Virus record (IMG/VR): IMGVR_UViG_3300022200_001499
Span: 1-21,559 of that record
Reading direction: 5' to 3' (one strand)
Length of the DNA stretch: 21,559 bases
From: a virus
The notes below the pieces were generated by a model. The model saw only the letters and a program-made list of their open reading frames with translations, did no database searches and was not told where the DNA came from. Position 1 is the first letter of the stretch. Each line of letters begins with the position of its first letter. The position numbers and the translations under genes are program-made. Shown here one piece after another: positions 8,550 through 21,559 of the stretch.

Positions 8550-8738
8550 ATGGACAACAAACGTGTGATTTACAAAACTGATGACAATGGGGTCGCTGTC
8601 ATCGTTCCTGCACCCGGCGCTACACAAGAGCAGGTGCTAAAGGCTGTACCAGCAGGTAAGCCCTACAAGATTGTAGATGTCGCAGATATTCCTGAAGACA
8701 GAACATTCCGTAACGCATGGGAATATATTAATGCTTGA
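8550..8738 (+). CDS. Fibre companion protein, N-terminal half (split by HNH gene?)
   Basis: This 62-residue protein (start supported by AAGGAG) begins MDNKRVIYKTDDNGVAVIVP and ends 'IPEDRTFRNAWEYINA'. From memory, phage proteins with 'DRTFRNAW' normally continue directly into a segment like '(V/I)T(V/I)(N/D)LDKAKEI...R..R...L..LDV'. That is exactly how the separate protein at 9111-9338 begins. The two lie in the same reading phase (both starts are at multiples of three) with an HNH gene between them. So this is probably the front part of a former single gene of about 135 codons. Whether the half is functional is unknown. Confidence 0.75.
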   Translation: MDNKRVIYKTDDNGVAVIVPAPGATQEQVLKAVPAGKPYKIVDVADIPEDRTFRNAWEYINA

Positions 8739-9111
8739 TAGATTTTTGAGCAAAACAATACCAGAGCCAAATTCTGGTTGCCTATTATGGACTGCTCATG
8801 TTAGCAGAGATGGATATGGAAGATTTGGAATTGGTAGAGTTCCACATGAAGCTCATAGAGTATCCTACAAATTATTTAAAGGTGAAATACCAAAAGGATT
8901 GTGTGTAGACCATATATGCAAAGTTAGAAGTTGTGTTAATCCAAACCATTTAAGATTACTTACAAGAGAAGATAATTCAAGATTGCAAGATAATTTTAAT
9001 GCAAAGAAAACGCACTGCAAATGTGGCAATGAATATACATTAAGAAACAACAAGCGAATTTGCAAGCCATGCCAAGCATCGGCTTCTAAAAAATATAGGG
9101 AGAAATTATAA
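8731..9111 (+). CDS. HNH homing-type endonuclease
   Basis: ATG 8731 was chosen because it overlaps the upstream stop and gives the N-terminus usual for this family (MLDRFLSKTIPEPNSGCLLW). The 126-residue protein has the HNH_3-type core: GCLLWTAHVSRDGYGRFGIG, then AHRVSYKLFKGEIPKGLCVDHICKV with Asp60-His61, then 'SCVNPNHLRLLT' with Asn72-His73. A C-terminal zinc ribbon follows (Cys96, Cys98, Cys111, Cys114). Such enzymes nick or cut intronless alleles and spread between phages. It lies between two small frames that look like one broken gene. TAATG occurs at both edges (8729-8733 and 9109-9113). I see no clear group I intron around it, so it is probably free-standing. Confidence 0.9.
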   Translation: MLDRFLSKTIPEPNSGCLLWTAHVSRDGYGRFGIGRVPHEAHRVSYKLFKGEIPKGLCVDHICKVRSCVNPNHLRLLTREDNSRLQDNFNAKKTHCKCGNEYTLRNNKRICKPCQASASKKYREKL

Positions 9112-18495: not shown

Positions 18496-18544
18496 ATCCC
18501 TTAAAATGCAAATTAGAGGCATGTATGTAATAAGGAGACCCAAC

Positions 18545-19009
18545 ATGAAAGTATGTTCTACATGTAATGAATTAAAACAACTCAAAGCTTTCTTCAAACG
18601 CAACGATTCGTTAGACGGTTACGAAGGCAATTGTAAAGAATGTCGAATGGAAAAAAAGAGAGCTAACCCAAACTTTAAAGAGACTACTAGGAAAGCTGCT
18701 ATCAAACACGAGAAGAAGCGTAAAGGTACGCGGTGGGGTTATAGTCTTTATCGTAACTACGGTATTACAGAGGATGATTACTGGGAAATGTATGAAGCAC
18801 AGGAAGGATGTTGTGCTATCTGTCGTAGACCAACTCAAGGTGACCACTACAACCGATTAGTCGTTGACCACAATCACGACACAAAAGAGGTACGTGGTTT
18901 GCTATGTAATAGCTGTAACGTAGTCCTAGGACACTCAGGCGACAACGCTGAAGTACTTGAACGCGCTGCTCAATACCTAAAGGATAAAGGTTCTTATGAC
19001 CGAGAATGA
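18545..19009 (+). CDS. Endonuclease VII-like HNH nuclease
   Basis: ATG 18545 is chosen because AAGGAG lies seven bases upstream; a longer reading from 18506 has no ribosome site. The 154-residue protein has an N-terminal zinc finger (Cys4, Cys7, Cys30, Cys33), a basic linker, 'YGITEDDYWEMYEAQEGCCAIC' (72-93), and the His-Me finger core 'VVDHNHDT..VRGLLCNSCN' with Asp108-His109, His111, Cys121 and Cys124. This is the recombination endonuclease VII type, known in T4 for resolving branched DNA before packaging. T7 has a different resolvase (gene 3). Here it could debranch concatemers, or be a homing-like invader between the terminase genes. It overlaps the large terminase by 14 bases. Confidence 0.88.
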   Translation: MKVCSTCNELKQLKAFFKRNDSLDGYEGNCKECRMEKKRANPNFKETTRKAAIKHEKKRKGTRWGYSLYRNYGITEDDYWEMYEAQEGCCAICRRPTQGDHYNRLVVDHNHDTKEVRGLLCNSCNVVLGHSGDNAEVLERAAQYLKDKGSYDRE

Positions 19010-20690
19010 AGTTAAATTAGCAATTAGCGACTTTAAGTATTTTCTCAAGATTACTTGGGAGCATTTGAGGTTACCACCACCTACAGAAATGCAGTATCGA
19101 ATTGCTGACTTTCTGCAAGAGGGACATAGACGCTCAGTGCTACAGGCTTTGCGCGGAATTGGAAAGACGTGGGAGAGTGGAGCATTTGTAGCTTGGAGAT
19201 TATTACGTAATCCTAATGAGAAAATTTTAATTGTATCTCAGTCAGGGTCACATTCTGATGCTATTGCTATCTTTATTAGAAAACTAATTGATACAATGCC
19301 TATCCTTGAGCATCTACAACCACGTGCTGACCAAAGGTCATCGGTAATTGCTTTTGATGTTAACGGATGTGATGTCTCTGTACAACCTTCGGTTAAATCG
19401 CTCGGTATTACCTCACAGTTACAAGGTAACCGTGCCTCTTTGTTAATCTCAGACGATATTGAAGGACAACAAAACTCTGCTACTGAGAAACGTAGGCAAG
19501 ACTTACTTAATCAGGCAGCTGAATTTGAGGCTATCTTACAAACAGGTAAAGAATCACAGATACTTGTATTAGGCACACCGCAGACTTCTGAATCAATATA
19601 TAATAGGATGTTAGATAAAGGTTATGTAACTCGTATATTCCCTGCTAGATACCCTGATAACATCGCTGTGTACAAAGGGTGTCTAGCTGATTATATCGTA
19701 CAAAAACTTAACAACAACCCCTCCCTTGTAAACAAGTCTATTGACGAAAGATTCTCAGATGAAGACTTATATCAGAGGGAATTAAGTTATGGTCGTAGTG
19801 GTTTTAAGCTACAGTTTATGCTTGATACTACATTAAGTGATGCTGAAAAGTATCCTTTAAAGACACGAGACTTAATTGTTACTGACCTATCCCCTGAACA
19901 AGCCCCTACAAAGCTCATGTGGAGTTCTCAGAGCCACGATAGTATTCAAGACATACCCAACGTAGGGTTTACTGGAGATACGCTGCAGAGACCTAGCTTA
20001 CAGGAGTCCTATGGTAACTATGAAGGTAGTATTTTAGCCATTGACCCGAGTGGTCGAGGTACGGATGAGATGGGGTGGTGTGTAGTCAATCATTTACTAG
20101 GTAAAGTATTTGTACCAGCATTTGGTGGATTACGTGGTGGTTATGACGAAGCTAACCTTGTGAAGCTTAGTCAGATAGCTCAGGAATACAAAGTCAATAA
20201 GGTAGTAGTTGAGAGTAACTTTGGTGATGGTATGTTTACTAGCTTACTAACTCCTGTGCTTAATGCTATCTATCCTGTCGCTACTGAAGAGATACGTAAC
20301 AATATTCAGAAGGAAAAGAGGATTATTGATACTCTAGAACCTTTGATGAACCAGCATCGACTAGTCTTTGACTATAGTGCTATTAAGAAAGATGTAGAGT
20401 TTGCTCTAGTTGAGCCTAAGAATATCTACTACTCCCTAATCTATCAGCTAAGCCATATAACTTATGATAGAGGTGCTTTGGTGCATGACGATAGACTTGA
20501 TGTATTGGCTATGGGTGTTCAGTTTTGGAACGACTATGGTATCTTAAAGCAGGACTCTGATGATGCTTTGGACATCTATAAGAAGAAAAAGATTGAAGAT
20601 GAGCTTAAAAGACGAGCTAATATCTTTAGGAGTATGCAAAAAAGACCACAAAGTAAGCCTAGTTTATCAAGAATTAGAGCTTTTAATTAG
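18996..20690 (+). CDS. Large terminase subunit, DNA packaging ATPase and nuclease (T7 gp19-like)
   Basis: This 564-residue protein (T7 gp19 is 586) has the expected ATPase motifs: Walker A ALRGIGKT at 51-58, Walker B LLISDDIE at 149-156 and the coupling motif LGTPQT at 192-197. The RNase H-like nuclease follows, with Asp350 in 'AIDPSGRGTDEMGW', Glu406 in 'VVVESNFGDG' and 'HDDRLDVLAMG' (Asp499, Asp502). It drives concatemer DNA into proheads and cuts it at the terminal repeat. Its start lies inside the end of the nuclease gene, with AAAGG before ATG. It is the last large gene in the window, as in T7. Confidence 0.97.
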   Translation: MTENEVKLAISDFKYFLKITWEHLRLPPPTEMQYRIADFLQEGHRRSVLQALRGIGKTWESGAFVAWRLLRNPNEKILIVSQSGSHSDAIAIFIRKLIDTMPILEHLQPRADQRSSVIAFDVNGCDVSVQPSVKSLGITSQLQGNRASLLISDDIEGQQNSATEKRRQDLLNQAAEFEAILQTGKESQILVLGTPQTSESIYNRMLDKGYVTRIFPARYPDNIAVYKGCLADYIVQKLNNNPSLVNKSIDERFSDEDLYQRELSYGRSGFKLQFMLDTTLSDAEKYPLKTRDLIVTDLSPEQAPTKLMWSSQSHDSIQDIPNVGFTGDTLQRPSLQESYGNYEGSILAIDPSGRGTDEMGWCVVNHLLGKVFVPAFGGLRGGYDEANLVKLSQIAQEYKVNKVVVESNFGDGMFTSLLTPVLNAIYPVATEEIRNNIQKEKRIIDTLEPLMNQHRLVFDYSAIKKDVEFALVEPKNIYYSLIYQLSHITYDRGALVHDDRLDVLAMGVQFWNDYGILKQDSDDALDIYKKKKIEDELKRRANIFRSMQKRPQSKPSLSRIRAFN

Positions 20691-20761: not shown

Positions 20762-20766
20762 GAACT

Positions 20767-20830
20767 CTTTAAGATTCTCTAAGATTCTTTAAGTATACTC
20801 TAAGTATACTCTAAGTATACTCTAAGAACA
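20767..20830 (+). repeat. Direct repeat array 1 (SR-like), six units
   Basis: Six head-to-tail units with core CTYTAAG: two of 10 bases (CTTTAAGATT, CTCTAAGATT), then four of 11 bases (CTTTAAGTATA, CTCTAAGTATA twice, CTCTAAGAACA). T7 carries an array of short CCTAAAG-like SR repeats next to its terminal repeat, and this array sits in the equivalent place. It shares the CTCTWAGATTC motif with the second array at 21447-21516. Confidence 0.8.
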
Positions 20831-20869: not shown

Positions 20870-21045
20870 AACTACTACTACCCCTACCTTAAATCTTATA
20901 TCGAGGTTTACTGTAGGTTTTACATCGAGGTTTTATGTGTAATCTTTACGCAGTCTCGATGACAACTACGTACTCTCTAGTCAACTGTAATCATTTCGAT
21001 GACTCAAGCTAGACCTTGTATGCTATTAATATATGGAGAAATACT

Positions 21046-21117
21046 ATGTGGACATCACCAGCAGCTACTGAAATGCGTTTTGGCTTTGAAGTTACTATGT
21101 ACGTAATGAATAAGTAG
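21046..21117 (+). CDS. pqqA: PqqA-like PQQ precursor peptide, copy 1
   Basis: This 23-residue gene has a good ribosome site (GGAGA, six bases before ATG). The peptide starts MWTSPAATEMRFGF and ends EVTMYVMNK. PqqA of Klebsiella is also 23 residues and has the same frame: Met-Trp at the start, Pro5, Arg11, Gly13, then Glu15-Val-Thr-x-Tyr19 and a basic end. Glu15 and Tyr19 are the two residues that PqqE, with the chaperone PqqD, crosslinks to build pyrroloquinoline quinone. No pqqB, C, D or E is seen here, so maturation would depend on the host. PQQ is the cofactor of methanol and other quinoprotein dehydrogenases. The stop is TAG. The main alternative is that this stretch is host DNA at a junction. 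Confidence 0.85.
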   Translation: MWTSPAATEMRFGFEVTMYVMNK

Positions 21118-21137
21118 GACTTACAATATAACATTAA

Positions 21138-21151
21138 GTCCCCTTTGGGAC
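21138..21151 (+). terminator. Small hairpin between the two pqqA copies
   Basis: GTCCC (21138-21142) pairs with GGGAC (21147-21151) around a CTTT loop, 21 bases after the first pqqA stop. The stretch after it is T-rich but broken (ATACTCAATTTAATTT). It may be a weak terminator or an mRNA 3' stabiliser making copy 1 its own message. Five pairs only, so confidence is low. Confidence 0.35.
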
Positions 21152-21179
21152 ATACTCAATTTAATTTAAGGATACTATT

Positions 21180-21251
21180 ATGTGGACATCACCAGCAGCA
21201 ACAGAACTACGCTTTGGCTTTGAAGTAACAATGTACGTAATGAACAAGTAA
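21180..21251 (+). CDS. pqqA: PqqA-like PQQ precursor peptide, copy 2
   Basis: This second 23-residue gene lies 62 bases after the first, with AAGGA seven bases before ATG. The peptide equals copy 1 except Leu for Met at residue 10, and keeps Glu15 and Tyr19. At DNA level seven codons differ and six of these changes are silent; the stop is TAA instead of TAG. The first 18 bases are identical. That pattern means an old duplication, or two separate acquisitions, kept by selection for the peptide. Each copy has its own ribosome site. Two copies would raise precursor supply, since one PqqA is consumed per PQQ molecule made. Confidence 0.85.
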   Translation: MWTSPAATELRFGFEVTMYVMNK

Positions 21252-21559
21252 GCATTACTACAGCCCATACCTCTGATTTAACTAATATACCCCACACGCC
21301 TATCAAAGAAGCGCAACCTTGTGGTGTTTTTGAACATGACCTTGGACCGTTATGTCAGGTAGGGATAACCTGTAAAACCCTAAAAATACTAAAAAAATCT
21401 GTGGGGGTATCGATAGGAAAGCCTTCTTAATTTTCCCCCAGCCCCCTTTTTGATTGCTTTTGATTCCTTTAAATTCTTTTTGATTCTTTTTGATTCTCTT
21501 AGATTCTCTTAGCTTCAAATATCAAAGAGTAATAAGAGACACTAAGAGAATACCAACAG
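21252..21559. other. Non-coding region at the window end
   Basis: No supported gene in these 308 bases. The first about 195 bases show only a possible long-loop inverted repeat (TGGGGG at 21402-21407 with CCCCCA at 21435-21440). The rest holds the second repeat array (21447-21516) and an A/G-rich stretch with AAGAGA motifs. An open frame on the minus strand runs through the repeat array and is judged a by-product. Confidence 0.6.
21447..21516 (+). repeat. Direct repeat array 2 (SR-like), seven 10-base units
   Basis: Seven exact 10-base steps: TTTTTGATTG, CTTTTGATTC, CTTTAAATTC, TTTTTGATTC twice, TCTTAGATTC and TCTTAGCTTC. The last units resemble CTCTAAGATTC of array 1. In T7, SR repeats occur both left and right of the terminal repeat. 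Two related arrays about 620 bases apart therefore suggest that the ends of the linear genome lie between or near them. A period near one helical turn could also matter for protein binding or DNA bending (T-tracts in phase). Confidence 0.8.

Follow-up and report, generated by a model that had tools for sequence, protein, structure and literature searches.

With psbA, the gene for the D1 protein, cyanophages supply a component of a host energy pathway that is consumed or turns over fast, and the host provides the remainder. One PqqA peptide is consumed for every PQQ cofactor made. The Methylophilaceae (OM43, Methylopumilus) rank among the major users of one-carbon compounds in lakes and coastal seas. 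Coutinho et al. (2020) reported PqqA together with methanol dehydrogenase in putative Methylophilaceae phage populations from Lake Baikal (PMC7678222), and a 2026 study of reservoir sediment listed pqqA among viral genes (PMC13188868). Viral pqqA is, therefore, a kind already known, and the suggestion of the first-pass annotation that it represents an undescribed phage strategy has to be given up. PqqA is unmentioned in the main text of the papers on marine-isolate phages.

Here, we analysed IMGVR_UViG_3300022200_001499, an entire IMG/VR record of 21,559 bases (hereafter, the window), which covers about half a phage genome. With a probability of about 0.83, we consider that it carries genuine PqqA in a T7-like, most likely lytic phage of Methylophilaceae, which would top up the consumed PQQ substrate and thereby sustain methanol oxidation.

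The pqqA pair and its phage

The features around the pqqA pair are as follows.

18996..20690, + strand: terL, T7-type large terminase (NF033889 605 bits, PF22530), directly upstream of pqqA copy 1
20965..21045, + strand: leader of copy 1, sharing 79% identity with that of the relative L370 despite differing flanks
21034..21041, + strand: putative ribosome-binding site of copy 1, by eye, within TGGAGAAA (Shine-Dalgarno-like GGAGAA)
21046..21117, + strand: pqqA copy 1, 23 aa, MWTSPAATEMRFGFEVTMYVMNK (PF08042 37.9 bits, TIGR02107 34.4 bits)
21138..21151, + strand: intervening stem-loop GTCCC-CTTT-GGGAC, presumably part of the 5' leader of copy 2
21166..21172, + strand: putative ribosome-binding site of copy 2, by eye, within TAAGGAT (Shine-Dalgarno-like AAGGAT)
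21180..21251, + strand: pqqA copy 2, 23 aa, MWTSPAATELRFGFEVTMYVMNK (PF08042 38.4 bits, TIGR02107 33.3 bits)

Judged by their sequences, the ORFs at 21046-21117 and 21180-21251 were confirmed as genuine PqqA peptide genes. Both scored above the curated cut-offs over the full model (21.1 bits for PF08042 and 20 bits for TIGR02107), with E-values of about 1e-9 and 1e-8, respectively, and the E-values of 2.7e-10 and 3.6e-10 obtained in the window's own record indicate that the matches are not due to chance. The first-pass annotation had described two 23-residue PqqA peptides after the terminase of a T7-like phage, and this description held, including the presence in each copy of Glu15 and Tyr19, the cross-linked residues that form PQQ. 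The copies are separated by a 62 nt gap (134 nt from start to start) and differ at 9 of 72 bases, which affect six synonymous sense codons, the stop codon and a single nonsynonymous codon (M10L), so that they represent diverged copies rather than a duplicated read. The tandem arrangement is real in the window, but it is an exception, because none of the other viral loci read has two copies side by side. One 36 kb viral record possesses two pqqA copies, one at each end, which are probably a terminal repeat.

The window contains genes for capsid, tail and internal virion proteins, an endolysin, an endonuclease VII-like protein and terminase, and the assignment to T7-like (Autographiviridae-type) phages is based on the NF033889 terminase, a Gp10A-like capsid, a tail protein and an internal virion protein. 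The early region lies outside the window; in a 42 kb relative (G001, L364), a T7-type RNA polymerase (PF00940) is present. A profile search for a tyrosine integrase (PF00589) was negative for both the window and this relative. Most likely, the window phage is lytic and infects a methylotroph of the Methylophilaceae, a host inferred from the PqqA type and by analogy with the isolates described below.

As for other features, the endonuclease VII-like gene (18506-19009) adjoins the terminase genes, and an HNH-type ORF, recognized by eye, is located amid the tail genes (8677-9111). Tandem repeats of 10-11 nt (CTTTTTGATT, TATACTCTAAG) form two clusters at 20766-20827 and 21446-21516, flanking the pqqA pair, and are perhaps near the genome end. 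Both contig ends of the 42 kb relative (L431, L433) fall inside a GCTAACTTGAGAGG-type repeat, pentapeptide-repeat-like by eye, which is probably where its assembly broke.

Distribution and genomic context of phage pqqA

A single pqqA directly follows terL in two relatives, L364 (91% TerL identity) and L370 (81%), and the contig of a third, L365 (90%), stops 13 nt into pqqA. In L370, pqqA and its leader are conserved with respect to the window while the flanks have diverged. The single copy of L364 combines the upstream junction of copy 1 with the downstream junction of copy 2, as would result from recombination between the window copies or from the insertion of one of them. Since terL-pqqA recurs in independently assembled contigs and pqqA is present in the isolate genomes of cultured phages, the phage location is genuine, and an assembly chimera or misjoined host DNA, against which the first-pass annotation had cautioned, was ruled out. 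PqqA was found in two of the 22 TerL-related records searched whole; pqqA, therefore, marks a subset of the T7-like group and is dispensable in the wider group, of which the members without it perhaps infect other hosts.

A tblastn search of 50,697 phage records with one of the window PqqA peptides matched nine records of cultured phages of Methylophilaceae (P19250A, Venkman, MEP301, MEP401, MEP402 and four of Melnitz), together with a metagenomic podophage and a pair of Acinetobacter "phage" records; further queries with PqqA of two other types gave no additional matches. PqqA is commoner in phages than the first-pass annotation had suggested: all nine cultured records found carry it, in single copies, and they comprise podo-, sipho- and myoviruses. 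"Every cultured methylophage" here refers to the records found, with MEP431-434, Venkman EXVC038S and HIM624-A outside the count. Among the 50,697 records, PqqA is restricted to methylotroph phages, and no genuine phage of another host carries it, one Acinetobacter record being judged by name.

The Acinetobacter record that was opened (L363, CAKLQF020000010, "Acinetobacter phage MD-2021a") is a 144 kb, bacterial-chromosome-like sequence in which pqqA stands beside pqqBCDE and ppk, and it was rejected as bacterial DNA filed as phage; the other match bears the same name.

As predicted from its small size, pqqA was missed by gene callers in every isolate inspected. It is unannotated in the opened isolates P19250A, MEP301, Venkman and MEP401, and in Melnitz (L361, MZ577097), as in the metagenomic podophage (L362, MW202481), it is overlaid by an annotated hypothetical ORF on the opposite strand, probably a wrong-strand call. 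A 4 kb stretch of MEP401 had no more than the 60-95 bp around pqqA in common with P19250A, MEP301, Venkman, Melnitz or the podophage.

In IMG/VR, at least 232 contigs carry pqqA: DNA-pattern scans yielded a PqqA ORF in 232 of the 234 contigs fetched, among the matches listed. These contigs, among the matches listed, form 42-79 gene-content groups depending on the threshold, with greedy clustering being used because single linkage chained nearly all loci together. In several groups, large or neighbouring ORFs have matches to phage families of terminase, portal, head and tail proteins, DNA polymerases and recombination proteins. The Pseudomonas/Acinetobacter-type PqqA pattern gave no viral contig among the IMG/VR matches listed. 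A second PqqA type (..TEIRLGMEITAYVMNR) occurs in the viral contigs L224-L236, which suggests phages of another PQQ-making host group.

Neither window copy has an identified promoter, no repeated intergenic motif convincingly marks a promoter for the phage RNA polymerase upstream of pqqA, and sigma-70-like sites near pqqA are at chance level; the inter-copy spacer folded alone is likewise not significant (z -1.0). Across phages, 99% of non-redundant pqqA copies have a ribosome-binding site ahead of them, compared with 4% at a shifted position. Terminators lie downstream of 41% (about 1% in shuffles), and a leader stem-loop is present in 42% of the units (5.5% of shuffles). At 78 of 205 loci, pqqA is flanked on both sides by genes of the opposite strand. 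Judging from these predicted signals, phage pqqA frequently resembles a small transcription unit of its own.

Selection, host supply and competing explanations

To avoid a biased sample, 120 contigs were picked by codons 1-14 only, among the matches listed. All 120 of these, among the matches listed, remain in frame to the stop at codon 24, and Glu15 and Tyr19 are invariant (120/120 each); over codons 15-23, pS is 0.70 and pN is 0.03 (pN/pS 0.048). Pairs at matching phage positions, defined by at least two homologous flanking ORFs, gave similar values over the same codons (pS 0.66, pN 0.04, pN/pS 0.06), demonstrating purifying selection within phages. The low pN/pS could in part reflect repeated conversion by host copies, and some of the apparent conservation could stem from recent acquisition of the gene from the host or from gene conversion, as copy 1 is 97% identical in nucleotides to its nearest host pqqA; copy 2 is 93% identical to its nearest host or phage copy.

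The same observations bear on passive carry-over, in which a short, multi-copy host gene would be repeatedly taken up by recombination and have no function in the phage. Hosts with up to 12 pqqA copies, the host-like copy 1 and the recombinant appearance of L364 would all be expected of it; nevertheless, we regard it as very improbable, because the frame is intact throughout the unbiased set with pN/pS of about 0.05, the gene is conserved at matching phage places and is present in all cultured methylophage records found, and L370 keeps gene and leader while its flanks diverge.

Methylophilaceae have been reported to carry 3-12 pqqA and usually a single pqqBCDE set (PMC4109929), and pqqA is amplified in the genomes analysed here, with PqqA in 149 of 150, a median of four copies and up to 12. 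The idea of the first-pass annotation that added pqqA copies alone could raise PQQ in a host that has the enzymes fits these copy numbers. Its description of a substrate gene without enzymes was also borne out, since pqqE was above the cut-off in none of 50 large pqqA-bearing records. A PQQ-dependent methanol dehydrogenase was found in one of the 50, the 72 kb record L030 (IMGVR_UViG_3300025120_009955; L425, L426; 608 bits with neighbours), where pqqA lies about 6 kb downstream.

According to the proposed mechanism, the infecting phage would express PqqA, host PqqD would hand it to PqqE, which would cross-link Glu15 to Tyr19, and a host protease together with PqqB and PqqC would complete PQQ, which would then load the host methanol dehydrogenases (XoxF/MxaF). 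When host transcription falls, the PqqA peptide would be the first part exhausted, because one PqqA is used per PQQ while the enzymes turn over many times, and a substrate gene alone, supplied in the manner of psbA in cyanophages, could raise PQQ, sustain methanol oxidation and so benefit the phage. Most simply, the peptide would be in limiting supply, and phages would supplement it once transcription in the host fails, the final step being the one we infer. More broadly, we lean towards enzyme-free precursor supply as a near-universal strategy of Methylophilaceae phages, repeatedly gained by unrelated types as a small gene unit, since PqqA would limit PQQ and methanol oxidation during infection.

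The peptide might, on the contrary, be a decoy that occupies PqqD/PqqE and blocks host PQQ synthesis, or that acts on another target. PqqA does bind PqqD, and excess peptide could compete; but a decoy could freely lose the reactive Glu15 and Tyr19, which are invariant among the matches listed, and the methanol dehydrogenase in one pqqA-bearing record points to support rather than blockade, which makes a decoy slightly less credible even than passive carry-over. It is more improbable again that the host-like 70 bp acts as an attP site through which the phage integrates into, or recombines with, host pqqA. Copy 1 has a 55-nt exact stretch in common with a host gene, and ERF- or RecE-type recombinases adjoin pqqA in some lineages, yet the window and its 42 kb relative are without the PF00589 integrase, phage copies differ at synonymous sites from the host copy closest to them (median 4 mismatches of 69), and an attachment site needs neither ribosome-binding site, terminator nor intact frame. 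Equally improbable is a role of PQQ outside central metabolism, such as occupying a PqqU-like receptor to block superinfection, for although E. coli PqqU serves as a phage receptor and infection is blocked by PQQ (PMC12124388), all the unrelated phage types would have to require the same receptor.

Implications and comparison with known systems

Should pqqA be present in nearly all Methylophilaceae phages, control of methanol oxidation by viruses would be routine and would have been missed because pqqA is only 72 bases long. Topping up of the PQQ substrate, if true, would also be a clear case of a viral metabolic gene that provides raw material rather than an enzyme. In addition, pqqA provides an easy sequence marker by which methylotroph phages can be recognized in metagenomes, and cultured phage-host pairs already exist for Venkman, P19250A, MEP301, MEP401 and Melnitz. 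The medium published for OM43 includes 1 nM PQQ (PMC9004378), an addition that could mask an effect of phage pqqA in such cultures.

Phage pqqA resembles the host paralogues in encoding a near-identical 23-aa peptide with its own ribosome-binding site, and tandem pairs about 200 bp apart are found in some host genomes (same-strand pairs about 190-200 bp apart in G106, G135, G152, G161 and G043). Unlike the host paralogues, it lies amid phage genes, is synonymously diverged and has fewer downstream terminators (41%, versus 86% of host units). Similar to pqqA, psbA provides a consumed or fast-turnover component from the phage; however, the product of psbA is a complete protein within a complex, while pqqA encodes a peptide that is chemically converted into a cofactor.

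The closest described case is VP_266 from Lake Baikal (PMC7678222), which, like the window phage, is a predicted Methylophilaceae phage with PqqA, read as boosting PQQ and methanol oxidation. VP_266 is T4-like and carries a phage methanol dehydrogenase, whereas the window phage is T7-like, with two tandem pqqA copies and no dehydrogenase in the window, and the generality of pqqA among methylophages is unstated in the accessible part of that paper. As far as the open-access literature searched shows, what is new is the near-universality of pqqA in methylophages, the pattern of a substrate without its enzymes, and the tandem pair.
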